A stretch of 64,000 bases of DNA from assembly GCA_913060875.1 (NCBI GenBank), contig CAJXSL010000001.1:702464-766463 (forward strand). The letters run 5' to 3'. Both the position numbers and the translations under genes were made by a program. This stretch comes from an uncultured Desulfobacteraceae bacterium (GTDB lineage Bacteria > Desulfobacterota > Desulfobacteria > Desulfobacterales > UBA5852). Under the pieces are notes generated by a model that made no database searches, was not told the DNA's origin, and saw nothing but the letters and a program-made list of their open reading frames with translations. Below, in pieces: positions 3,676 through 62,213 of the stretch (position 1 is its first letter; the number at the start of each line of letters is the position of its first letter).

Positions 3676-3894
3676 TTACATTAACCCTTGCGTGTCGCCT
3701 TCTGCTTATTTGGTCACGCTAAAGAAACATGAAAATAAGTTCTCAATTAAGCAGGCGTTTTAGTGTAATGTTTTTCCTTGAAAGTACAGTAATTTAGTAG
3801 AGTTAAAATTCTATCGTTCTGTTATCTAAGCCAATTCAATATGCGGGGTTTATCGCATAAATATTGCATGCATAGAAGGAGGTTTGTTCTAAAG

Positions 3895-3995
3895 AAAAAG
3901 CCAAACCCGCTGTGAAGCGGGGACGGAAAGCCACGGGTCTCTCAGGGGCGAATGCCACAGACCTACGGGAGAAAGCCGAGTTGCCTTGGTTACAG
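3895..3995 (+). promoter_or_regulatory. Cyclic-di-GMP-I (GEMM) riboswitch aptamer
   Basis: The order of conserved elements matches the GEMM-I family: 'AAGCCAAACC', a GC hairpin with a GNRA-like loop (CCGCTGTGAAGCGG), 'GGACGGAAAGCCACGGGTCT', a variable arm, then 'GACCTACGGGAGAAAGCCGAGTTGCC'. It sits 40-140 nt before the start codon of the PEP-CTERM protein gene (4033), which it should control. Downstream bases form a terminator that shares sequence with the aptamer (separate entry). Confidence 0.85.
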
Positions 3996-10737: not shown

Positions 10738-10825
10738 GCCGGAGTGGTGAAATTGGTAGACGCGCCAGACTCAAAATCTGGTGGGCCTTGCGCCCGTGGG
10801 AGTTCGATTCTCCCCTCCGGCACCA
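10738..10825 (+). tRNA. tRNA-Leu (anticodon CAA)
   Basis: Acceptor stem GCCGGAG pairs with CTCCGGC. The D-loop contains GGTAGACGC. The anticodon stem CCAGA/TCTGG encloses loop CTCAAAA, so the anticodon is CAA (reads UUG). A long class II variable arm (GGGCCTTGCGCCC) and the T-arm GGGAGTTCGATTCTCCC are present. CCA is encoded (10823-10825). Confidence 0.95.
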
Positions 10826-37335: not shown

Positions 37336-38883
37336 CTATAACCCCTGGCGGGCTTTCACCGGGTGGGCTTTAAGGTATTCGAGACGGTTCAGCCCGTTGA
37401 TATAGGCTTTGGCGCTGGCGGTGATGATGTCCGGATCGGCGCCTTTGCCCAGCGCCACCAGGCCGTTTTCCCTGAGACGAACCGTCACTTCGCCCATGGA
37501 GTCAGTGCCGCCGCTCAAAGCGCTGACGGTGAACCGCAGCAGCTCCGATTGCGTTCCGGTCAGTTTGGCAATGCTGTTGAAGGCCGCGTCGATGGGACCG
37601 TTGCCGTAGCCGGCGTTGCGGGCCGTCCGTCCGTTGATGGAGAGTTCCACACTGGCCATGGGCAGCACGGTGGTGCCGCTGGTCACCTGCATATAATCCA
37701 ACTGGAAGACATCCGATGTTCGCAGGATACCCTCGGTGACCAGCACCTCCAGATCTTCGTCGACAATGTGCTTCTTTTTGTCAGCCAGGTCCTTGAACTT
37801 GCCGAAAATCAGGTCCAATTCCTCTTCACTCAGCTCATACCCCAATTCTTTCAGACGGTTACGCAAGGCATGCCGGCCGGAATGCTTGCCCAGGACAAGT
37901 TGGTTTTGGCTCAGACCAATGGTCTCGGGCCGCATGATTTCATAGGTCATGGGGTTTTTGAGCATCCCGTCCTGGTGGATGCCGGCTTCGTGGGCGAAGG
38001 CGTTGGCCCCCACGATCGCCTTGTTGGGCTGCACCAGGATGCCGGTGATCATGCTGACCAGGCGGCTGCTGGCATGGATATGCTCGGTATGGATACCGGT
38101 TTCGAGACCAATGTGATTCTGGCGGGTGTGCAGCGCCATCACCACTTCTTCCATAGATGTATTGCCGGCCCGCTCGCCGATCCCATTGAGGGTGACTTCG
38201 GCCTGACGGGCGCCGGCCTGGATCGCCGCCAGGGTGTTGGCGGTGGCCAGGCCCAGATCGTTGTGGCAATGCACACTGAGAACGGCGCGGTCGATATTGG
38301 GGGTGTGCTCGCATACATAGCGGACCATCTTGCCGAATTCGTCCGGAACGGCATAACCAACGGTATCCGGAAGATTGACGGTGGTGGCGCCGGCGTCGAT
38401 GGCCGCCTCGAAAACCTGGCAGAGAAAATCCCAGTCACTGCGGGAGCCATCCTCGGCCGAAAATTCGACATTGTCGGTGTAAGTACGCGCATGACGTACG
38501 GCCTCGATGGCGGCCTGGATCACTTCGTCCCGGTTCATGCGCAGTTTGTATTTCAGGTGGATATCGGAGGTGGCGATAAAGGTGTGGATGCGGGGATGGG
38601 CCGCATGCCGGACAGCCTCCCAGGCCCGGTCGATATCCTTTTCGGTGGCGCGGGCCAGCCCCGCCACCTGAACATGCTTCAATTTGGCGGCAATCTGGGA
38701 TACGGCGTCGAAATCCCCTTCGGATGCGGCCGGAAATCCGGCTTCGATGACATCGACGCCCAGTTTTTCAAGCTGCACGGCCAGGCGCAGTTTTTCCGCG
38801 GTGTTCATGCTGGCGCCGGGGGACTGCTCGCCATCCCGCAGCGTGGTGTCGAAAATAATGACACGGTTCTTATCCATCGTCAT
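37336..38883 (-). CDS. leuA: 2-isopropylmalate synthase
   Basis: 515 residues from ATG 38883 (ribosome site GAGGAG). Condenses acetyl-CoA with 2-oxoisovalerate, the committed step to leucine. Motifs: IIFDTTLRDGEQSPGASM, metal-binding 'VLSVHCHNDLGLATAN', 'LNGIGERAGNTSMEEV', 'HEAGIHQDGMLKN', and a full C-terminal LeuA regulatory domain (about 395-515) with feedback-site style segments. It is the last gene of the ilv operon, after a 320-nt gap. Confidence 0.95.
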   Translation of the reverse strand: MTMDKNRVIIFDTTLRDGEQSPGASMNTAEKLRLAVQLEKLGVDVIEAGFPAASEGDFDAVSQIAAKLKHVQVAGLARATEKDIDRAWEAVRHAAHPRIHTFIATSDIHLKYKLRMNRDEVIQAAIEAVRHARTYTDNVEFSAEDGSRSDWDFLCQVFEAAIDAGATTVNLPDTVGYAVPDEFGKMVRYVCEHTPNIDRAVLSVHCHNDLGLATANTLAAIQAGARQAEVTLNGIGERAGNTSMEEVVMALHTRQNHIGLETGIHTEHIHASSRLVSMITGILVQPNKAIVGANAFAHEAGIHQDGMLKNPMTYEIMRPETIGLSQNQLVLGKHSGRHALRNRLKELGYELSEEELDLIFGKFKDLADKKKHIVDEDLEVLVTEGILRTSDVFQLDYMQVTSGTTVLPMASVELSINGRTARNAGYGNGPIDAAFNSIAKLTGTQSELLRFTVSALSGGTDSMGEVTVRLRENGLVALGKGADPDIITASAKAYINGLNRLEYLKAHPVKARQGL

Positions 38884-39204
38884 GGCTATACTCCTCATAA
38901 GGTCGTGTGTTGCATAAGGGTGCCCGATGCGGCAGATCTTGCACGGCTGTCGGCCGAAAGGCGTTCATGCTGACGATCGGGCTGTCCGGGTGCGTTGGGG
39001 CAGGGGGTAATGAACGCCGCGCAGGCTTTTCACCCCTCGGATCAAGCAGATTCAACCGGTGGCGAGGAGCATGGGCCGCAGGGATTGGCCGGGGCGGCTC
39101 CCTGCGGCGTTGGACCTTCCGTCGCTTTGTTGGGGGTTCATCAGTACACTCTCTATTCGGAAAGGGCCTGTCGTGAGGCCCGTCCGGTAACGGATCCTCT
39201 TGGT
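38884..39204. other. Gap between cimA and leuA with one inverted repeat
   Basis: 320 bases. The only structure is a 10-bp inverted repeat, GCCGCAGGGA (39075-39084) and TCCCTGCGGC (39099-39108), with no T-run on the minus strand. No leader peptide rich in Leu and no T-box motif were found. leuA may have its own promoter here; none of consensus quality is visible. Confidence 0.4.
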
Positions 39205-40851
39205 TTAGACGGTGGCCCGGTCCGTGTCCGGGGCATCGCTGTGGATGACCGTCGCGCTGTTGGCCGTTTTGGACAGTTTGTATTGAAAACTGTCCGCCAG
39301 GGCCTGCCAGCTGGCTTCGATAATATCTTCCGAGACCCCGATCGTACTCCAGATGTGATCATGGTCGCGGGATTCGATCAGAACGCGGACCTTGGCCTCG
39401 GTGCCCTCCCGGCCGTCGATGACGCGGACCTTGAAGTCCACCAGGCGCATGCTGTCCAGGTCGGGATAAAAGCGTCCCAGGGCTTTGCGCAACGCATTGT
39501 CCAGGGCGCTGACCGGCCCCAGGCCTTCGGCTGCCGTAATCTCTTCCGAATCGCCCACCGCGACCTTGATGGTGGCATGGGCGGAACAGGGCTGATCCCG
39601 GTCTTTTTCGATGGCCACGCGAAACGATTCCAGCTCGAACAGGGGCTTGAACTGCTCGGTAAATTTTTCCACCATGATTTTGAAGGTGCCGTCGGCCACA
39701 TCGAACTGGTAGCCCTGCTCTTCCATTTCTTTGATGCGGTTGACGATCACCTGGCTGTCAAACCCATTACCACCCAGGGTGACCCCCAACTCCTGGGCCT
39801 TGTATTCCACATTGCTTTTGCCGGACAGGTCGGAGACGAGAACACGCCGACGGTTGCCGACCTGTTCCGGATCCATGTGTTCGTAAGCCAGGGGCTCTTT
39901 CATAATGGCGTTGACGTGGATGCCGCCCTTGTGGGCAAAAGCACTTTTACCCACAAAAGGACGACAGTTGCTGGGGACCTGGTTGGCCGTCTCGCTGACA
40001 AAACGTGACAGGCTTTTGAGCTTGGCCAAATTGGCCGGGGCCACGCAGGCGTGCTTCATTTTGATCTGCAGCACCGGGATCAGCGACGTCATATCGGCAT
40101 TGCCGCAGCGCTCCCCATAGCCGTTGATCGTACCGTGGACCATGCGGGCGCCCGCCCGGACGGACGCCAGGGCGTTGGCCAGGGCCAGCCCGCTGTCGTT
40201 ATGGGTGTGGATGCCGATTCCCGGAACGGCTCGGCCTGTTTCGGAACACCAGGCGGTGAGCTGCTCGGCGACCTCCTGGGTGGCGGCTTCCACGTCGTGC
40301 GGCAGGGAGCCGCCGTTGGTGTCGCACAGCACCACCCAGTCCGCCCCGGCCTCCACAGCGGCCTGCAGGGTCTCGAGGGCATACGTCCGGTTGGCGGTAT
40401 ACCCGTCGAAAAAATGCTCGGCATCGTAGACCACTTCACGGTCGCGCGCCTTGAGAAACAGCACGGTATCCCGAATCATGTCGATGTTAGCGCTCAACCG
40501 GTTGCCCATGATTTTTTCGACGTGCAAATCCCAGGTTTTGCCAAAGATGGCCAGCACCGGGGCTTCGCTTTTCAGCAGGGCGTTCAGGTTCGCGTCTTCG
40601 GCCGCTTTTCGGTCCGCCCGGCGGGTGGCCCCGAAGGCCGTGAGCTTTGCCTGGTTGAACCTTTCGCGGCGGGCGATGTCGAAAAAGTGCATGTCCCGGG
40701 GGTTGGAGCCCGGCCATCCGCCTTCGATATAATGCACGCCGATATCGTCGAGCCGCTGGGCGATCGTAAGCTTTTCGTCGGCCGAAAAAGCGATATTCTC
40801 TCCCTGGGTTCCGTCCCGCAGGGTCGTGTCATAGAGCAGTATGGGGTCCAT
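39205..40851 (-). CDS. cimA: (R)-citramalate synthase
   Basis: 548 residues from ATG 40851 (GGAAA before it; an ATG at 40857 and TTG at 40863 are alternatives). The LeuA-like HMGL-type TIM barrel reads 'LLYDTTLRDGTQGENIAFS', 'GIHTHNDSGLALANALA', 'INGYGERCGNADM', then 'KGGIHVNAIMK' and a C-terminal regulatory domain. Makes citramalate from pyruvate and acetyl-CoA, a threonine-independent entry to isoleucine. The distinctive Q-G-E-N after TLRDG separates it from LeuA. It lies between ilvC and leuA. Confidence 0.93.
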   Translation of the reverse strand: MDPILLYDTTLRDGTQGENIAFSADEKLTIAQRLDDIGVHYIEGGWPGSNPRDMHFFDIARRERFNQAKLTAFGATRRADRKAAEDANLNALLKSEAPVLAIFGKTWDLHVEKIMGNRLSANIDMIRDTVLFLKARDREVVYDAEHFFDGYTANRTYALETLQAAVEAGADWVVLCDTNGGSLPHDVEAATQEVAEQLTAWCSETGRAVPGIGIHTHNDSGLALANALASVRAGARMVHGTINGYGERCGNADMTSLIPVLQIKMKHACVAPANLAKLKSLSRFVSETANQVPSNCRPFVGKSAFAHKGGIHVNAIMKEPLAYEHMDPEQVGNRRRVLVSDLSGKSNVEYKAQELGVTLGGNGFDSQVIVNRIKEMEEQGYQFDVADGTFKIMVEKFTEQFKPLFELESFRVAIEKDRDQPCSAHATIKVAVGDSEEITAAEGLGPVSALDNALRKALGRFYPDLDSMRLVDFKVRVIDGREGTEAKVRVLIESRDHDHIWSTIGVSEDIIEASWQALADSFQYKLSKTANSATVIHSDAPDTDRATV

Positions 40852-40887
40852 GATCATTTCCAATACAATAACAGCAGACCGCGCGGG

Positions 40888-41946
40888 CTACTGTTGTTCA
40901 CGTCGGTTTTCGGGGCGCAGCGATCGCACGGCCTTGCCGGCCTGCCACATTTCCGAATCGCCGACCACTTTGAGTTCCGCCTCGAGCTTCTCCCGGTAGT
41001 CTTCCGTGCTGCAAGATTCCATGACCCGCCGGGTTTCCGCTCCGGAGGTGACACTGGCGTAGAGTTCGTCAAAAACCGGTTTAACGGCATCGCGAAAGCG
41101 CGGCGCCCAGTCCAGGGCACCCCGCTGGGCCGTGGTGCTGCAATTGGCGAACATCCAGTCCATCCCGTTTTCCGCCACGAGGCGAATCAGGCTCTGAGTG
41201 AGCTCTTCCACGGTTTCGTTGAAGGCCTCGCTGGGGCTGTGCCCATGGTTGCGCAGCAGGTCGTACTGGGCTTCCATGACGCCGGCCAGGCACCCCATGA
41301 GCACACCGCGTTCGCCGGTGAGGTCGCTGTAGACCTCGCGCTCGAAAGTGGTGGGGAAAAGATAGCCGGATCCGATGGCGATGCCGGCGGCCAGGGTCCG
41401 CTGCCGGGCCTTGCCCGTAAAGTCCTGAAAGACGGCAAAGCTCGAGTTGATGCCGCTGCCATCCAGGAAGTTGCGCCGCACCGTGGTGCCGGAGCCTTTG
41501 GGGGCCACCAGAATCACGTCCACGTCGGCCGGCGGGATCACGCCGGTCTGGTCTTTGTACACCACCGAGAAGCCGTGAGAAAAATAAAGGGCGTCGCCCT
41601 CGTTGAGACAATCCTTGATTTTGGACCACATGGCCGACTGGCCGGCGTCCGACAAGAGATACTGAATGATGGTGCCGCGTCGGGCGGCTTCCTCCACGGG
41701 AAAAAGGGTTTCGCCGGGCACAAACCCGTCGGCGACGGCGCGATCCCAGGAGGCACCGCCTTCCCGCTGGCCGACAATGACCTGAATGCCGTTGTCGCGC
41801 ATGTTCAATGCCTGCCCGGGGCCCTGGACGCCGTATCCGAGAACGGCAACGGTTTCTTGCCGCAGCACTTCCCGGGCTTCGTCCAGGGTAAACTCTTCGC
41901 TGGTGATAACTTCCTCGATGGTTCCGCCAAAATCAATCTGGGCCAT
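40888..41946 (-). CDS. ilvC: Ketol-acid reductoisomerase
   Basis: 352 residues from ATG 41946 (ribosome site AGGAGG). NAD(P)-binding motif GYGVQGPGQALNMRDNG; catalytic region 'VAPKGSGTTVRRNFLDGSGI'. The helical C-terminal domain 'SDLTGERGVLMGCLAGVMEA' carries the Mg ligands. Converts acetolactate or acetohydroxybutyrate to dihydroxyacids in Val/Ile synthesis. Third in a run with ilvB, ilvH. Confidence 0.93.
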   Translation of the reverse strand: MAQIDFGGTIEEVITSEEFTLDEAREVLRQETVAVLGYGVQGPGQALNMRDNGIQVIVGQREGGASWDRAVADGFVPGETLFPVEEAARRGTIIQYLLSDAGQSAMWSKIKDCLNEGDALYFSHGFSVVYKDQTGVIPPADVDVILVAPKGSGTTVRRNFLDGSGINSSFAVFQDFTGKARQRTLAAGIAIGSGYLFPTTFEREVYSDLTGERGVLMGCLAGVMEAQYDLLRNHGHSPSEAFNETVEELTQSLIRLVAENGMDWMFANCSTTAQRGALDWAPRFRDAVKPVFDELYASVTSGAETRRVMESCSTEDYREKLEAELKVVGDSEMWQAGKAVRSLRPENRREQQ

Positions 41947-42014
41947 TGGATTTCCTCCTGCAACGTTTTTTGCTGGGGTTATTTGCATGCCGGCGATGAC
42001 GCCGGCTGTTTTGA

Positions 42015-42503
42015 CTATTTGGGCTCCCGCATGAGGGCGATGGCCCCTGTCCTTGCGATTTTTTTGATGCCCATGGGGTGCAACAAACTCAATAGGGCGG
42101 TCAGTTTTCCCTCGTCGCCGGTGACTTCGATGATAAAATGCTCCAGGCCGACATCCACGACCTTACAACGGAAGATATCCACGATGCGCAGGATCTCCGC
42201 CCGATTGTCCGGACTGGCCTTGACGCAGATCAGGGCCATTTCCCGCTGAACCGCATCGACATTGGTCAGATCCCGAACCTTGATCACATTGATGAGCTTG
42301 TTGAGTTGTTTCTCGATCTGTTCCACCACTGGCGGATTGGCTTTGGTGACGATGGTGATCCGGGAAACCCCCTTTGTCACCGTCTCCGCCACGGACAGGC
42401 TCTCGATGTTGAATCCCCGTCCGCCGAAGAGGCCGACGACACGCGAGAGGACGCCGGGTTCGTTATCCACCAGCATGGTGATGACATGTTTATCTTCTTT
42501 CAT
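42015..42503 (-). CDS. ilvH: Acetolactate synthase, small (regulatory) subunit
   Basis: 162 residues from ATG 42503 (ribosome site AGGA). Starts with an ACT domain 'HVITMLVDNEPGVLSRVVGL' and 'GRGFNIESLSVAET', which senses valine, then the C-terminal half 'REMALICVKASPDNRAEILR' and 'FIIEVTGDEGKLTALL'. It pairs with IlvB, whose stop lies 28 nt upstream. Confidence 0.93.
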   Translation of the reverse strand: MKEDKHVITMLVDNEPGVLSRVVGLFGGRGFNIESLSVAETVTKGVSRITIVTKANPPVVEQIEKQLNKLINVIKVRDLTNVDAVQREMALICVKASPDNRAEILRIVDIFRCKVVDVGLEHFIIEVTGDEGKLTALLSLLHPMGIKKIARTGAIALMREPK

Positions 42504-42531
42504 TCGCAATCCTGTCAAAAGGCCTTATGGT

Positions 42532-44220
42532 TTAAACGAGCAGCATCTCCGTGATGTTGGCGCCGGCCGGCACCATGGGATAGACACTCTCTTCCTTCTC
42601 CACGACAAAATCCATGATGACCGTGCGGTCGGAGTCCAGTCCCTCCCGCAGCACCGCCGCGACCTGGTCGGGCCGGGTCGCCCGCAATCCCAAAGCCCCG
42701 TATGCTTCCGCCAGTTTAACGAAGTCGGGCTGGTGGTCCATGAGCGTGCAGGCATAGCGGCGGTCGTAGAACAACTCCTGCCACTGTCGCACCATCCCGA
42801 GATAGCCGTTGTTCAGGATGACAATTTTTACCGGAAGGCACGATTGGACGGCTGTCGCCAGTTCCTGGATATTCATCTGAATACTGCCGTCCCCGGCGAT
42901 ATCCACGACCTGGCGATTCGGGCAGGCCGCCTTGGCGCCGATGGCGGCCGGTAGACCGAAACCCATGGTGCCCAGACCACCGGAGGAGAGAAACTGACGG
43001 GGACCGTCGAAGTGATAGAACTGGGCCGCCCACATCTGGTTCTGGCCCACTTCCGTGGTCACGATGGCCTGGCCCTGGGTCAGCTCGAAGAGTTTGTCGA
43101 TGACGAACTGGGGTTTGATGACCTCTTCGCCTTGATCGTATGCCATGCGGAACTGCTTTTTCCACGTTTCGATCTGGTCGAGCCACCCCCGGTGGCGGTC
43201 ATCGAAATCAACGATGCCCTCCTCGGCGATCAGGGCATTCAACCGTTCCAGGGCTTGCCGGCAATCACCGACCACCGGTATGGCCACCTGGACGTTTTTG
43301 CGGATCGAGGTGGGGTCGATATCGATATGCACGATTTTGGCATTGCCCGCAAATGTGTCGATTTTGCCGGTGACCCGGTCGTCGAAGCGTACACCGATGG
43401 CGATCAGGAGATCACAGTTGCCCGTGGCCATGTTGGCCCGGTAGGTGCCGTGCATACCGATCATCCCCAGCCAGAGGGGATCCGATCCGGGAAAGGCGCC
43501 CAGGCCCATCAACGAGGTGGTGACCGGCGTCCGGGTTTGCCGGGCAAATTCGGTAAAGGCTTCGGAGGCATCGGACAGGATCAATCCGCCGCCCCCGAAC
43601 AGAACGGGGCGCTTGGCTTTCCTGATCAGCCCCACGACCTTCTTCAGCTGTTTCATGTTGGGCTTGTAGGTGGGCTGATAGGATTTGATGCGCACCTGGG
43701 GATCGCCGTTCAGGCGGGTGCGCGCGTTGGCCACGTCCTTGGGGATATCCACCAGAACAGGGCCGGGGCGTCCGGTCTGGGCGATATAGAACGCCTCCCG
43801 CATAACACGGGCCAGGTCATCGACAGATTTGACCAGATAGTTGTGCTTGGTGCAGGGGCGGGTGATCCCGGTAATGTCCACTTCCTGAAAAGCATCGTTG
43901 CCGATCAGGTGGGTGGGGACCTGGCCGGTGATCACGACCATGGGTATCGAGTCCATAAATGCGGTGGCAATGCCGGTCACTGTGTTGGTGGCCCCCGGCC
44001 CCGAGGTGACCAGGCAGACGCCCGGACGACCACTGGCCCGGGCATACCCGTCGGCCGCGTGCACGGCCCCCTGTTCGTGACGGACCAGGATGTGCCGTAT
44101 GTCGGTTTTGACCAACTCATCGTAGATGTCGATGACGGCGCCTCCCGGGAAACCGAAGATGGTATCCACGCCCTGTTCCTTTAAAACTGCCATCAGAATT
44201 TGGGCTCCGGTCATTTCCAT
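42532..44220 (-). CDS. ilvB: Acetolactate synthase, large (catalytic) subunit
   Basis: 562 residues. TPP enzyme: catalytic Glu in RHEQGAVHAADGYARASG, 'PGVCLVTSGPGATNTVTGIA', FAD region 'LLIAIGVRFDDRVTGKID', and TPP/Mg motif 'DIAGDGSIQMN...LNNGYLGMVRQ'. Condenses pyruvate with pyruvate or 2-oxobutyrate. Ribosome site AGAGGAA before ATG 44220. Length and motifs are normal. Confidence 0.95.
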   Translation of the reverse strand: MEMTGAQILMAVLKEQGVDTIFGFPGGAVIDIYDELVKTDIRHILVRHEQGAVHAADGYARASGRPGVCLVTSGPGATNTVTGIATAFMDSIPMVVITGQVPTHLIGNDAFQEVDITGITRPCTKHNYLVKSVDDLARVMREAFYIAQTGRPGPVLVDIPKDVANARTRLNGDPQVRIKSYQPTYKPNMKQLKKVVGLIRKAKRPVLFGGGGLILSDASEAFTEFARQTRTPVTTSLMGLGAFPGSDPLWLGMIGMHGTYRANMATGNCDLLIAIGVRFDDRVTGKIDTFAGNAKIVHIDIDPTSIRKNVQVAIPVVGDCRQALERLNALIAEEGIVDFDDRHRGWLDQIETWKKQFRMAYDQGEEVIKPQFVIDKLFELTQGQAIVTTEVGQNQMWAAQFYHFDGPRQFLSSGGLGTMGFGLPAAIGAKAACPNRQVVDIAGDGSIQMNIQELATAVQSCLPVKIVILNNGYLGMVRQWQELFYDRRYACTLMDHQPDFVKLAEAYGALGLRATRPDQVAAVLREGLDSDRTVIMDFVVEKEESVYPMVPAGANITEMLLV

Positions 44221-44244: not shown

Positions 44245-45912
44245 TTAAGCGACAATCGCCCCTTGGGCCGCCGATGATACCAATTTGGCATAACGGGCCA
44301 TGTAGCCCCCGGTGATGCGGGGTTCCGGCGCTTGCCAGGCCGAACGCCGGCGTTCCAGTTCATTGTCATCCACCTGAAGGGTTATGGCTTTGCCGGGAAT
44401 GTCAATGGCGATGCGATCGCCTTCCTGCACCAGGGCGATGGGCCCACCCTGCATGGCCTCCGGTGATACATGGCCGATGGAGGCGCCCCGGGTTCCGCCG
44501 GAAAACCGGCCGTCGGTCAGCAGGGCCACATGGGCGTCCAGGCCCATGCCGGCAATGGCGGAGGTGGGGGTCAGCATCTCCCGCATGCCGGGTCCGCCCT
44601 GGGGGCCTTCGTAGCGGATGACCACCACGTCGCCCTTGCGGATAAGGCCGTCCATGATGGCGCGGCTGGCCGCTTCTTCGGTGTCGAAAACCCGGGCCGG
44701 ACCCTCGTGTCGCAGCATTTCTTCCCGGACGGCCGATTGCTTGACCACACAGCCCTCCGGCGCCAGGTTGCCGAAAAGCACCGCCAGCCCGCCGACGGCA
44801 TGGTAGGCCTTTTCCACCGGGCGGATGATGTCGGTATCCCTTACAACCGCCTGGGCCAGCGTTTCCCCCAGGGGCTGGCCGGAGACGGTCAGGACACTTG
44901 GATCGATGAGCCCGGCTTCGCTCAGGATTTTCATCACGGCCGGGATGCCGCCGGCCCGATACAGGTCTTGAACATGGTGGTGGCCGCCGGGGCTGAGGGA
45001 GCAGAGATGCGGCGTCCGGCTGCTGATGTCGTTGATCATGCCAAGATCCAGCGGCACCCCGGCTTCATGGGCAATGGCGGTCAGGTGCAGCACGGTGTTG
45101 GTGGAGCAGCCCAGCGCCATGTCGACGGTCAATGCATTGCGAAAGGCCTGGGGCGTCATGATCTGTTTGGGGGTCAGGCCGGACCGGGCCAGGGCCACAC
45201 TTTGCATGCCCGCCTGCTTGGCCAGGCGAATGCGGGCCGACATGACCGCCGGGATGGTGCCGTTGCCGGGCAGGCCGAGACCGATGGCCTCCGTCAGGCA
45301 GTTCATGGAGTTGGCCGTAAACATGCCGGAGCATGAGCCGCAGGTCGGGCAGGCCGCATCCTCGATGGCGCCTAACTCTTCCGGAGACATTTTCCCGGAT
45401 TTCACCGCACCGACCGCTTCAAACACCGAAATCAAATCGACGCGCGTGCCCGGCTTCGAGGGGTGCTCACCGGCCAGCATGGGGCCGCCGCTCACCACGA
45501 TGGTGGGAAGGTCCAGGCGGGCGGCCGCCATGAGCATGCCCGGAACGATTTTATCACAATTGGGAACCAGGACCAGGGCATCGAAGGCATGGGCCCGGGC
45601 CATGATTTCGACGGAATCGGCGATGAGTTCGCGGCTTCCCAGGGAATACTTCATACCGGTATGGTTCATGGCAATGCCGTCGCAAACCCCGATGGTGCCG
45701 AATTCGATGGGGGTGCCGCCGGCCATGTAAACCCCGTTCTCGACGGCCCGGGCGATGCTGTCCAGGTGGGCATGGCCGGGGATGATCGTGTTGGCCGCAT
45801 TGGCCACGCCAATCAGGGGGCGCTCGATTTCATCGTTCGTATAGCCGATTGCTTTGAGCAGGGATCGGTGCGGTGCGCGTTCGATGCCTTTTTTGACGTT
45901 GTCGCTCTGCAT
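44245..45912 (-). CDS. ilvD: Dihydroxy-acid dehydratase
   Basis: 555 residues from ATG 45912 ([16 protein letters not shown]; ribosome site AGGACG). Fe-S cluster Cys sites: '[11 protein letters not shown]', '[18 protein letters not shown]' and '[13 protein letters not shown]'. Makes 2-oxo acids from dihydroxyacids in Val/Ile synthesis. First structural gene of the operon, after the attenuator. Its leader starts at about 46120. Confidence 0.95.
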
Positions 45913-45946: not shown

Positions 45947-46028
45947 AAAAAAAAATCCGTTATCAGCTCGGGGCTGATAACGGATTCGGTCGTTTTGGGA
46001 ATCCAGCGTTTTAGGCCATTATCAACCC
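45947..46028 (-). promoter_or_regulatory. Transcription attenuator of the ilv operon
   Basis: On the minus strand, terminator stem AATCCGTTATCAGC (45986-45973) pairs perfectly with GCTGATAACGGATT (45967-45954), followed by a T-run to 45947. Antiterminator: GGGTTGATAATGG (46028-46016), the last codons of the leader peptide, can pair over 13 bp (two G-U) with CCGTTATCAGCCC (45983-45971), the left arm of the terminator. A separate hairpin, CCTCGTGG (46065-46058) with CCACGAGG (46040-46033), lies inside the leader and may act as a pause site. A ribosome at the leader stop covers the antiterminator arm, giving termination; a ribosome stalled earlier leaves it free. Confidence 0.85.
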
Positions 46029-46112
46029 TTTGCCTCGTGGCAGAATGAGAATGTCTACCACGAGGACGAGAATAAGGCCGACAAGGCTGAAAATGCTGGA
46101 CTGCGTAAACAT
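46011..46112 (-). CDS. ilv operon leader peptide (33 residues)
   Basis: ATG 46112 to TAA 46011, too short for ordinary gene calling. A GGAAA ribosome site precedes the ATG. Of 33 residues, 7 are Leu, 5 Ile and 4 Val; residues 7-24 hold 14 branched-chain residues in 18 positions, interrupted only by F, S, G and D. The last codons form one arm of the antiterminator. This is the classical layout for translational attenuation by charged tRNA-Leu/Ile/Val. It could be mistaken for a membrane peptide, but the coupled terminator argues for a leader. Confidence 0.85.
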
Positions 46113-46165
46113 AAGAGTTTCCAAATAATAATTTTAGGAACCCCTAACAAGCCAGGAAGGGCTTG

Positions 46166-48475
46166 TCAAGGAGAATCTGTATCGTCGTTTTCTTCTTCGG
46201 GAATGGGTTCCCGGTTGCCGCAGCCTTCGGCGATGCAGGCATAGAAGCGGCCGTCGCGTTTGGTGGATTTTTCGACCATGAAGGGGGCGTTGCACACCTC
46301 GCATTTACGGGCGACCGGTTTGTCCCAGATGGCATAGGTGCACTCCGGAAAACGGCTGCAGCCGTAGAAGATTTTACCCCGTCGCGATTTGCGTTCGACC
46401 AGCTCCCCGTCACAGCCCGGCTCCGGGCAGGCAATCCCGGTGGATTTGCCGTTGGTCCCATTGTTGAGGGACTCGGTGTGTTTGCATTCGGGGTAGCCGG
46501 TGCAAGCCAGGAACTCGCCATAACGGCCGTGCTTGATGACCATGGGACGACCGCATTGCTCACAGGTTTTGTCCGAGGGGATGTCTGCCGCCGGTTCGAT
46601 CGGCTGGATTCGCCCCTTCTCGTCGCGTTCGTAATCCCGTGAATAATCGCATTCGGGATAGGCGCTGCAGGCGATGAAGGGGCCGTTCTTGCCCACCTTG
46701 ATGTGCAAAGGGCTGTTGCATTGGGGGCATTTCAAGTCTGTCGGAAACCCCACCCCTTTGATGCTGATCATCCCGTCGGCGGCGGCTTCCAGCTTGGCTT
46801 TGAACGGCTGGTAGAATTGCTCCAGAACGCGTAAGGCTTTCGCCTCATTCTGCTCGATTTGATCCAGATTGTCTTCCATCCGGGCGGTGAATTCCACGTT
46901 GAAGATGTCGGGGAAATTCATCACGATGAGATCGTTGACGATAAAGCCCAGTTCGCTGGGGCGAAAATAGCCCTTGACCCGGTCGACGTAGCCCTTGTCG
47001 CGGATCGTGGAGAGAATGGAGGCGTAGGTGCTGGGTCGCCCGATACCGTTTTCTTCCAGTTCTTTGACCAGCGACGCTTCGGAAAACCGCGGCGGGGGCG
47101 CCGTGAAATGCTGCTTGGGGTCCAGGTTGTCGAGTTTGAGAGGGGTTCCCTCCGGCAGGTCGGGAATATCTTCCTGCTTCTTTTCTTTCTGTTGTTTGGC
47201 GTCATCTTCGGCCGATGTGTAAAGGGCCATGAATCCGGGGAACTTGACCGATGAGCCGTTGGCGGAAAAGATGAAATCGGCGGCCTTGATCGAAAGCTTC
47301 AACTGATTGATGAGCGCAGGCTGCATCTGGGAGGCCACGAATCGTTTCCAGATCAGGGTATACAGGGCGGCCTGGTCGGGTTGGAGATAGGGCGCTACCG
47401 ATTCCGGTGTGTGCAAGACCGACGTCGGGCGAATGGCCTCGTGGGCGTCCTGGGCTTTTTTACGGTTTTTGAAGGCGCGTGGCTTGTCGATGGCATAAGT
47501 CGGGCCGAAACGCTCCCGGATGTGCTGAAGTGCTTCCTGGGCGGCTTCATCGGCAATACGGGTGGAATCCGTTCGCATGTAGGTGATCAGACCGACGGGC
47601 TCGCCATCCCCCAGTTCGATGCCTTCATAGAGTTGCTGCGCGACCATCATGGTCTTGCGGGCGGAAAAACGCAGGCGGCGAATGGCCTCCTGCTGCAATT
47701 TGCTGGTGATGAAGGGCGGCTGCGGATTGCGCCGCGTGGTTTTTTTGACGACCTGATGGACCGAAAAATCCGCCTGGGCGAGTTGATCGACAATGGTGCG
47801 GGCCGCATCGCCGTCGGGAATATGGATTTTTTGGCCGGCCTGGCGCACCAGTTTAGCGTTGAATGGCGGCGGGCTGTCACCGGCCAGTCGGGCGGTGATG
47901 CTCCAGTATTCTTCGGGCTCGAAAGCCTGGATGGCCCGTTCCCGGTCGCAGATGATTTTGACCGCGACCGATTGAACCCGCCCGGCACTCAAACCGCCTT
48001 TCACTTTTTTCCACAGCAGCGGGGATATCTGGTAACCCACCAGGCGGTCCAGAATGCGTCGGGTCTGCTGGGCTTCATATTTGTTGGTGTCCAGTTGCAG
48101 GGGATGCTGGAGCGCCTCTTTGATGGCATTGGGGGTGAGTTCGTGAAACAGCACCCGATGAAACCGTCGCCCCTTTTTTTTGAGAACTTCGGCCGTATGC
48201 CAGGCAATGGCCTCGCCCTCGCGATCCGGGTCAGGGGCCAGGTAAATTTCGTCCGCGTCGCCGGCAGATGCCTTCAGGTTCTTGATGACTTTCTGCTTGC
48301 CGGCAATGGTACGATATTTGGGTTTGAAGTCGTCCTCGATATCGACGCCCATCTCTTTTTGCGGCAGGTCCCGGATATGGCCCACGGTGGCCGCGATATT
48401 GTAAGCGTCACCGATGACCTTGGACAGGGTTTTGATTTTTGTAGGGGATTCGACAACAACGAGCGGTTTGGTCAC
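46166..48475 (-). CDS. topA: DNA topoisomerase I
   Basis: 769 residues from GTG 48475 (ribosome site AAAGGAG). Toprim region at the start: LVVVESPTKIKTLSKV; 'LAPDPDREGEAIAWH'; catalytic Tyr in GLITYMRTDSTRIAD. The C-terminal 200 residues carry four C4 zinc-finger repeats: CPQCNSPLHI, CEQCGRPMVI, 'CPEPGCDGELVERKS' and CEVCNAPFMV. Relaxes negative supercoils. Downstream, ACAAGCC and GGCTTGT form a short hairpin (about 46144-46164) before the ilv leader. Confidence 0.95.
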   Translation of the reverse strand: MTKPLVVVESPTKIKTLSKVIGDAYNIAATVGHIRDLPQKEMGVDIEDDFKPKYRTIAGKQKVIKNLKASAGDADEIYLAPDPDREGEAIAWHTAEVLKKKGRRFHRVLFHELTPNAIKEALQHPLQLDTNKYEAQQTRRILDRLVGYQISPLLWKKVKGGLSAGRVQSVAVKIICDRERAIQAFEPEEYWSITARLAGDSPPPFNAKLVRQAGQKIHIPDGDAARTIVDQLAQADFSVHQVVKKTTRRNPQPPFITSKLQQEAIRRLRFSARKTMMVAQQLYEGIELGDGEPVGLITYMRTDSTRIADEAAQEALQHIRERFGPTYAIDKPRAFKNRKKAQDAHEAIRPTSVLHTPESVAPYLQPDQAALYTLIWKRFVASQMQPALINQLKLSIKAADFIFSANGSSVKFPGFMALYTSAEDDAKQQKEKKQEDIPDLPEGTPLKLDNLDPKQHFTAPPPRFSEASLVKELEENGIGRPSTYASILSTIRDKGYVDRVKGYFRPSELGFIVNDLIVMNFPDIFNVEFTARMEDNLDQIEQNEAKALRVLEQFYQPFKAKLEAAADGMISIKGVGFPTDLKCPQCNSPLHIKVGKNGPFIACSAYPECDYSRDYERDEKGRIQPIEPAADIPSDKTCEQCGRPMVIKHGRYGEFLACTGYPECKHTESLNNGTNGKSTGIACPEPGCDGELVERKSRRGKIFYGCSRFPECTYAIWDKPVARKCEVCNAPFMVEKSTKRDGRFYACIAEGCGNREPIPEEENDDTDSP

Positions 48476-62098: not shown

Positions 62099-62130
62099 AG
62101 GCTACCGGCCGGCATGCGTTATTTGATTCG

Positions 62131-62213
62131 AAAAGGGCAAATCCGTTGAAAGACGGAGACGCAAAACCACGGGTCTAAAGCCGACAGGTTAGGACAGCCG
62201 GGTTGCCGAAGGT
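62131..62213 (+). promoter_or_regulatory. Second cyclic-di-GMP-I (GEMM) riboswitch
   Basis: Conserved GEMM-I order: 'AAAGGGCAAATCCG', loop TTGAAAGA, 'CGGAGACGCAAAACCACGGG', then 'TCTAAAGCCGACAGGTTAGG', 'ACAGCCGGGTTGCCGAAGG'. It is closer to the textbook consensus (GACGCAAA-CCACGGG) than the one at 3895. It precedes the unknown gene at 62291. Confidence 0.9.

Follow-up and report, generated by a model that had tools for sequence, protein, structure and literature searches.

A predicted leucine, isoleucine and valine attenuator ahead of ilvD and its neighboring genes in Desulfobacterales

Organization of the region between topA and ilvD

The interval between topA and ilvD in the DNA analyzed here (the window, a stretch of 64,000 nucleotides from an uncultured Desulfobacteraceae bacterium) very probably contains a transcription attenuator of the ribosome-mediated type, which responds to the charging of tRNAs for Leu, Ile and Val. 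Most likely, a decoy leader peptide and a foldable RNA act together to switch the downstream genes off when leucine, isoleucine and valine are abundant. The element is located on the minus strand between the end of topA (position 46166) and the start of ilvD (position 45912). Its parts are listed in the direction of transcription.

46169-46141, minus strand: predicted promoter, marked by a word conserved in the upstream regions of relatives
46112-46011, minus strand: leader peptide ORF of 33 codons, 16 of them Leu, Ile or Val
46102-46074, minus strand: segment 1, the protector (anti-antiterminator), formed by early leader codons (minimum free energy fold)
46065-46054 with 46044-46033, minus strand: leader hairpin of 12 bp, the apex of the protector stem (fold)
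46028-46016, minus strand: segment 2, the 5′ arm of the antiterminator, within the leader ORF, GGGTTGATAATGG
46019-46011, minus strand: in-frame ATG GCC TAA at the leader end, equivalent to an out-of-frame start-Ala-stop mini-ORF in most relatives
45983-45971, minus strand: segment 3, the 3′ arm of the antiterminator, common to the terminator, CCGTTATCAGCCC
45986-45947, minus strand: intrinsic terminator of 14 bp with its T-run (sequence and simple scan)

An earlier note on this DNA had described a 33-residue leader with 16 Leu/Ile/Val residues, which was confirmed letter by letter (46112-46011) and comprises 7 Leu, 5 Ile and 4 Val. The 13-bp antiterminator that it proposed between the last leader codons and a downstream arm (46028-46016 with 45983-45971) also is present and includes two G-U pairs. 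The 14-bp terminator with T-run was found as described: its arms (45986-45973 and 45967-45954, the latter being segment 4) flank a loop of 5 nt (45972-45968) and are followed on the 3′ side by nine T residues (45955-45947). A simple terminator scan reports this structure with 15 pairs. Antiterminator and terminator are mutually exclusive, as claimed, because both stems use 45983-45973.

Other parts of that description required revision. The 8-bp leader hairpin exists, but extends to 12 bp and is the tip of a larger protector stem in which 46102-46074 pairs with 46029-46000 and which takes 12 of the 13 bases of segment 2 in the minimum free energy fold. The attenuator had been termed complete: the core parts stand, but there are four segments and not three, the protector stem having been overlooked, and neither the promoter nor the ATG GCC TAA that closes the leader in frame had been noted. 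It also had been termed translational, whereas the element is predicted to act on transcription through an intrinsic terminator.

The leader RNA (46160-45947) folds at -84.1 kcal/mol compared to -49.5 kcal/mol (sd 4.5) for 200 shuffled versions (z -7.7). Among 3,000 dinucleotide-preserving shuffles of 46169-45913, a terminator of at least 10 bp with a T-run arose five times, a terminator with an overlapping antiterminator in none, and a terminator, an exclusive antiterminator and a Leu/Ile/Val-rich ORF together in none. The sequence itself provides a putative leader rich in the three amino acids, a terminator ahead of the first structural gene and an antiterminator that excludes the terminator; folding alone supplies the protector stem by which termination would be restored when the leader is not translated.

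Folding of the leader RNA and proposed switch

Folds of the unoccupied RNA were computed with a ribosome placed at each of six stall positions (codons 10-24), taking 14 nt to be protected. The antiterminator (46028-46016 with 45983-45971) formed in all six. Once the ribosome was placed on the stop codon, the free RNA formed the terminator alone, and with the ribosome absent both the protector stem and the terminator formed. The equilibrium fold of full-length RNA carrying a stalled ribosome preferred the terminator; therefore, the choice of antitermination must be kinetic and made during transcription. Known attenuators likewise decide kinetically, while transcription proceeds.

In the proposed mechanism, RNA polymerase would start near 46134 and a ribosome would enter the leader at 46112. 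If any one of leucine, isoleucine or valine is short, the ribosome would stall in the run of Leu/Ile/Val codons and cover segment 1, leaving segment 2 free to pair with segment 3, in which case no terminator would form and the operon would be transcribed. If all three amino acids are plentiful, the ribosome would reach the stop codon at 46013 and cover segment 2, such that segments 3 and 4 would form the terminator and transcription would end near 45947. If the leader is untranslated, the protector stem would trap segment 2 and transcription would end as well. The leader hairpin is probably an RNA polymerase pause hairpin.

Predicted promoter

The predicted promoter comprises a -35 box TTGACA (46169-46164), a 17-nt spacer, a TG dinucleotide (46149-46148) and a weak -10 box TAGGGG (46146-46141). 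From this layout we infer a transcript start near 46134, only ~22 nt ahead of the leader ORF. The word CTTGACAA, with at most one mismatch, is present in 24 of 29 upstream regions, window included, and in 20 of these 24 sits 52-64 nt upstream of the leader start. Shuffling of the upstream regions gave a best word present in 11 of 29 (one shuffle, single run). A consensus promoter scan of the window does not report the leader promoter because the -10 box is weak. The -35 box (46164-46169) overlaps the stop codon of topA.

It could be argued from that overlap, with topA ending at 46166, and from the absence of the leader promoter in the scan list, that the terminator is constitutive or serves the upstream topA gene and that the ilv genes use another promoter. 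Leader and terminator, however, occur together before ilvD, ilvB, cimA or leuA in many genomes, and CTTGACA is conserved upstream of the leader in relatives. This explanation is very unlikely, and the attenuator reading is followed below.

The downstream operon

Six genes follow the element, each identified by an NCBIfam match above the cut-off.

44245-45912, minus strand: ilvD, dihydroxy-acid dehydratase (TIGR00110)
42532-44220, minus strand: ilvB, acetolactate synthase large subunit (TIGR00118)
42015-42518, minus strand: ilvH, acetolactate synthase small subunit (TIGR00119)
40888-41988, minus strand: ilvC, ketol-acid reductoisomerase (TIGR00465)
39205-40863, minus strand: cimA, citramalate synthase (TIGR00977, 707.6 bits with a cut-off of 450)
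37336-38898, minus strand: leuA, 2-isopropylmalate synthase (TIGR00973)

The intergenic gaps are short except that between cimA and leuA, which is 306 nt. Thus, the six-gene operon of the earlier note holds for ilvD-ilvB-ilvH-ilvC-cimA, whereas membership of leuA is likely but unproven. A simple scan found neither a minus-strand terminator nor a promoter match in the cimA-leuA gap. The clean gap is weak evidence because the same scan misses the leader promoter and lists a promoter-like site inside ilvB (43361-43334).

Conservation within Desulfobacterales

An IlvD search of 40 relatives (own genome included) matched 39 and returned 30 loci. The element was found upstream of ilvD in 29 of these 30 regions with the window included, that is, in 28 of 29 relatives, and the segment 3 motif CCGTT(A/G)TCAG likewise in 29 of the 30 regions, window included. 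Locus L029 has no element within 400 nt of ilvD, but its genome (G023) does have covariance model matches, the best of which is on another contig. The leaders of relatives are also rich in Leu, Ile and Val; between families this composition is kept, but the residue order is not.

A covariance model (R1) built from the 29 element sequences upstream of ilvD matched 254 of 291 genomes of the order and had no match in the other 37; because 29 of the matched genomes supplied R1 sequences, the corresponding count without these is 225 of 262. Matches occurred in 162 of 173 good-quality genomes and in 127 of 138 genera. Scanning a collection of named genomes with a three-part DNA pattern gave 91 loci, all of which contain TAATGGC by construction. 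The titles of 80 listed pattern loci are either of Desulfobacterales type (Desulfobacterales, Desulfobacteraceae, Desulfococcaceae) or merely delta-proteobacterial or 'Proteobacteria', and one of the remaining 11 loci (L123) bears the title Desulfuromonadales. Named carriers include Desulfosarcina cetonica, Desulfoluna butyratoxydans, Desulforapulum and Desulfosudis. The first of six searched genes on the same strand was ilvD in 58 and ilvB in 18 of the first 80 pattern loci (76 in all); the other four end 50-211 nt downstream, too short to tell. The cimA gene is part of the gene run in 13 of 14 pattern loci with at least 6 kb downstream. As ilvD or ilvB comes first and cimA follows, the element goes with the head of the operon and not with ilvD itself.

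Second copies also were observed. Genomes of family f36 (G280, with L204 and L205, and G132, G251 and G096) carry two copies each, the copy at ilvD being richer in Ile and Val and the copy before a divergent 2-isopropylmalate-synthase-like gene being richer in Leu. In G017, a second copy (L206) precedes a divergent acetolactate-synthase-like gene ~45% identical to ilvB of the window.

Pairing and covariation in relatives

For the antiterminator (segment 2 with segment 3), assessed in 29 sequences with the window included, 93.1% of cells were paired compared to 20-57% when the arms were slid. Covariation in this stem is weak, with two compensatory cells and a score reached in 29 of 500 shuffles. 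In the terminator, one of 12 consensus pairs covaries (UA in 13, AU in 11 and GC in 3 sequences, with two sequences unpaired); there is little covariation because the terminator core is nearly invariant. The leader hairpin was paired in 83.2% of cells versus 42-58% when slid and showed 25 compensatory cells against 9.2 in shuffles, a count that none of 500 shuffles reached, with the structure taken from the window and relatedness left in the shuffles. Thus, the comparison that had been suggested to check the attenuator came out in favor of a conserved leader frame, of the leader hairpin and of pairing in the two exclusive stems, but showed few compensatory changes in these stems because both are so conserved. 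The reading as a multivalent ilv attenuator, in which the last leader codons supply one arm of an antiterminator exclusive with the terminator, is supported.

A larger set comprised the 102 of 121 loci (L003-L123) that passed a filter for presence of the motif, an arm score of 9 of 14, no fewer than 8 Leu/Ile/Val residues and distinct DNA; the Leu/Ile/Val content of the set is therefore partly built in by the selection. The leader hairpin is more stable than in codon-order shuffles in 86 of the 102. In the window, segments 1 and 2 have a better duplex energy than codon-order shuffles (p = 0.020), and this is so at p < 0.05 in 42 of 102 loci, compared to 5 of 102 for a control with segment 2 reversed. 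In relatives, segments 1 and 3 are almost alike (GnCATTATCAnCC and CCGTTATCAGCC), and the same holds for segments 2 and 4 (GGGTTGATAATGGC and GCTGATAACGG). The near-invariance observed in the structure comparisons would fit an RNA in which each segment pairs with its neighbors while segment 2 also carries stop codons. RNAalifold applied to the full alignment of 28 rows (L026 left out) recovered the terminator alone, a shortfall which we think is due to misaligned leader loops.

Leader codons and operon content outside the order

A sample of 395 genomes of the phylum included 28 from outside the order with weaker covariance model matches, and 35 places in 27 of these were examined (all but G320 and a second place in G660). 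A gene of branched-chain amino acid synthesis comes first in 31 of the 35: cimA in 22, leuA in 3, ilvB in 5 and ilvD in 1. The place in G592 (L210) is the sole one examined outside the order in which a Leu/Ile/Val leader is not ahead of such a gene: an Ile-rich leader and an element of the branched-chain type precede an acyl-CoA-dehydrogenase-like gene (423-1562, below cut-offs), and ORFs that by sequence impression resemble electron-transfer flavoprotein also are there.

Codon composition was compared among 31 Leu/Ile/Val leaders before branched-chain genes outside the order, leaving out L210. In tests that ignore kinship, the Leu share was higher with leuA (14 vs 14, p = 3e-5, three short stretches left out), the Val share was higher with ilv genes (16 vs 11, p = 3e-4, four short stretches left out), and Ile/(Ile+Leu) was higher in cimA places without leuA than with it (11 vs 11, p = 4e-4). 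The rows include near-duplicates (L189/L195, L216/L217, L202/L219 and L218/L220). The gene run of L184 was read as cimA-leuC-leuD-leuB-like. Kinship is controlled for when two leaders of the same genome are compared, and in five of six such genomes Val was more abundant in the ilv-linked leader (G323, G662, G534, G492 and G467, but not G642; G534 and G492 share one genus). Against this stand L211 (cimA with a Leu-rich leader, although the downstream stretch is only 2.8 kb), L209 (ilvBHCD, no Val) and L203 (ilvB-ilvH, one Val), and more weakly L197 (two Val). Overall, leader codons tend to follow operon content, with Leu accompanying leuA, Val accompanying ilv genes, and Ile prominent where cimA occurs without leuA. 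The window fits this tendency in that Leu, Ile and Val all occur in a leader ahead of ilv genes, cimA and probably leuA. The Ile-rich leaders ahead of cimA would support citramalate as a route to isoleucine in these bacteria.

Leaders of other composition were observed in attenuator-like elements. Those of L200 (G428) and L214 (G400) are rich in Tyr and Phe (DYYFFYYT and FYYFYYT); the gene that follows looks by sequence like aroK (shikimate kinase), for which there was no NCBIfam match at the limit used, and aroC (chorismate synthase) is next in L200, the one of the two places where enough sequence is available. In L221 (G436), a Trp-rich leader (WGWWW) with an attenuator-like fold lies ahead of ORF 5242-3374, which is iorA (indolepyruvate ferredoxin oxidoreductase, above the NCBIfam cut-off) and is followed by an iorB-like gene (below the cut-off); nearby ORFs give the impression by sequence of a liv-type transporter. 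A Trp-rich leader before iorA would suit a biosynthetic role of indolepyruvate ferredoxin oxidoreductase.

These comparisons bear on the proposal that the product of the Leu/Ile/Val-rich ORF is a small membrane protein, such as a toxin-like or stress peptide, with the hairpin being just its terminator. The leader peptide indeed is hydrophobic and begins ~22 nt from the predicted transcript start. However, families keep its composition and not its residue order, and outside the order leaders turn nearly Ile-only, Val-rich, Tyr/Phe-rich or Trp-rich with the downstream genes. The end of the ORF moreover is locked into the antiterminator arm, and ilvD or ilvB is next in all of the 80 pattern loci examined except four that are too short to tell (76 of 80). 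A membrane protein thus is highly improbable, and the ORF is treated here as the leader of an attenuator.

A start-Ala-stop mini-ORF in the antiterminator arm

The leader stop codon (UGA, UAA or UAG) falls inside segment 2 in 73 of the 102 loci. In 25 loci the leader reads on to the Met-Ala-stop position, as in the window, and four are otherwise. Early-ending leaders often have a start codon in a different frame, either after the stop or overlapping it. This feature was tested in loci found with the IlvD protein or with R1 and not with the DNA pattern, because pattern loci hold TAATGGC by construction. Among 65 early-ending leaders of the order, a start codon was at the usual place in 50 (44 ATG, 4 GTG and 2 TTG) and absent in 15, counts in which some bias remains because the R1 training sequences mostly have ATG there. 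Codon 2 of the mini-ORF is Ala in 41 of the 50, drawn from all four Ala codons, and a stop occupies codon 3 in 41 of the 50 (TAA 25, TGA 11 and TAG 5). Stops occurred at codon 4 in two and at codon 5 in four of the 50, and in shifted frames in none and one of 50. In a small sample from outside the order, four of seven have a stop as codon 3. Under a looser position rule the motif was found in 44 of 65 leaders of the order, with ~4 expected, and in 7 of 23 outside it, with 1.1 expected; the Leu/Ile/Val filter of this count left out L200, L209, L214 and L221. The pattern looks like selection on codons.

Tentatively, the two-codon AUG-Ala-stop gene might park a ribosome on the antiterminator arm and thereby tighten termination, although this role is doubtful. 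A ribosome ending the leader at UGA would restart at the AUG a few nucleotides on, or a ribosome would enter there directly, and the second stop two codons on would keep it on the arm while the terminator forms. A rival reading remains in which the second stop merely guards the other reading frame and the AUG is held by base pairing, and leaders do switch frame even inside one genus. In the genus of the window, the L006 leader ends early whereas those of L005 and L007 read on. The frame differences among these three loci center on a G-run in the antiterminator arm.

To our knowledge, classic attenuators have no such ribosome-parking mini-ORF. Two-codon minigenes are found elsewhere, as in lambda bar. 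The mini-ORF described here would resemble the lambda bar and axe-txe minigenes in having a regulatory role, and differs in sitting in an antiterminator arm. The axe-txe minigene is a regulatory two-codon minigene, and the opening of its abstract draws no link to attenuation (PMC8708949). The start-Ala-stop motif raises the question of how a released ribosome stays on the antiterminator arm.

Relationship to known attenuators

The Escherichia coli ilvGMEDA (ilvL) attenuator is among the closest known systems. The two share a multivalent Leu/Ile/Val leader, a serial arrangement of protector, antiterminator and terminator, and a position at the head of an ilv operon. Unlike ilvL, the present element is in another lineage, has cimA inside the operon and has a leader stop that falls in or just past the antiterminator arm.

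The Corynebacterium glutamicum ilvBNC attenuator is reported to use CUU and GUA as control codons, and its overlapping hairpins are described as a 'fast' switch (PMC11857589). By that description, it shares with the window a leader with control codons and antiantiterminator, antiterminator and terminator hairpins (PMC11857589). The Leu, His, Thr and Trp leaders in Rfam (RF00512, RF00514, RF00506 and RF00513, respectively) follow the same regulatory principle, but the window element matches no Rfam family; Ile/Val attenuators were not in Rfam according to a comparative study of RNA regulons from 2013, which also holds that amino acid attenuators may have originated in gamma-proteobacteria (PMC3766115).

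A search of Rfam release 15 with the window and 11 related loci gave no family that matches the element, leader families and T-box included. This result bears on a further explanation, in which the terminator is under the control of a riboswitch or T-box that binds a metabolite or tRNA, the ORF being incidental. Mutually exclusive stems occur in riboswitches too, and the terminator core is very conserved. However, the element has no family at the gathering score in the window or the 11 related loci, nothing relevant appeared in Rfam at E ≤ 10, only ~22 nt separate the predicted start from the leader, and the leader codons tend to follow the pathway. A riboswitch or T-box is extremely unlikely, and translation of the leader is preferred as the sensing step.

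A literature search of titles and the opening parts of abstracts gave, among the matches listed, no recognizable description of the element, and a term search of the main texts of PMC545781 and PMC2965389 found nothing on it. Vitreschak 2004 or Lopatovskaya 2010 may already predict attenuators in some delta-proteobacteria. The principle of attenuation is well known and the mechanism is classic; the start-Ala-stop mini-ORF is possibly the one new part. The element nonetheless adds a family of branched-chain amino acid attenuators that is absent from Rfam, kept across much of an order and represented in further orders of the phylum as well. As related elements precede cimA, leuA, ilvB or ilvD with changing codons, the evolution of attenuator specificity becomes directly readable.

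Elsewhere in the window, c-di-GMP-I type riboswitches were matched above the Rfam gathering score (RF01051, RF03167) at 62126-62210 and 3891-3989, both on the plus strand, and a tRNA gene (Rfam RF00005 match) is located at 10738-10822 on the plus strand.
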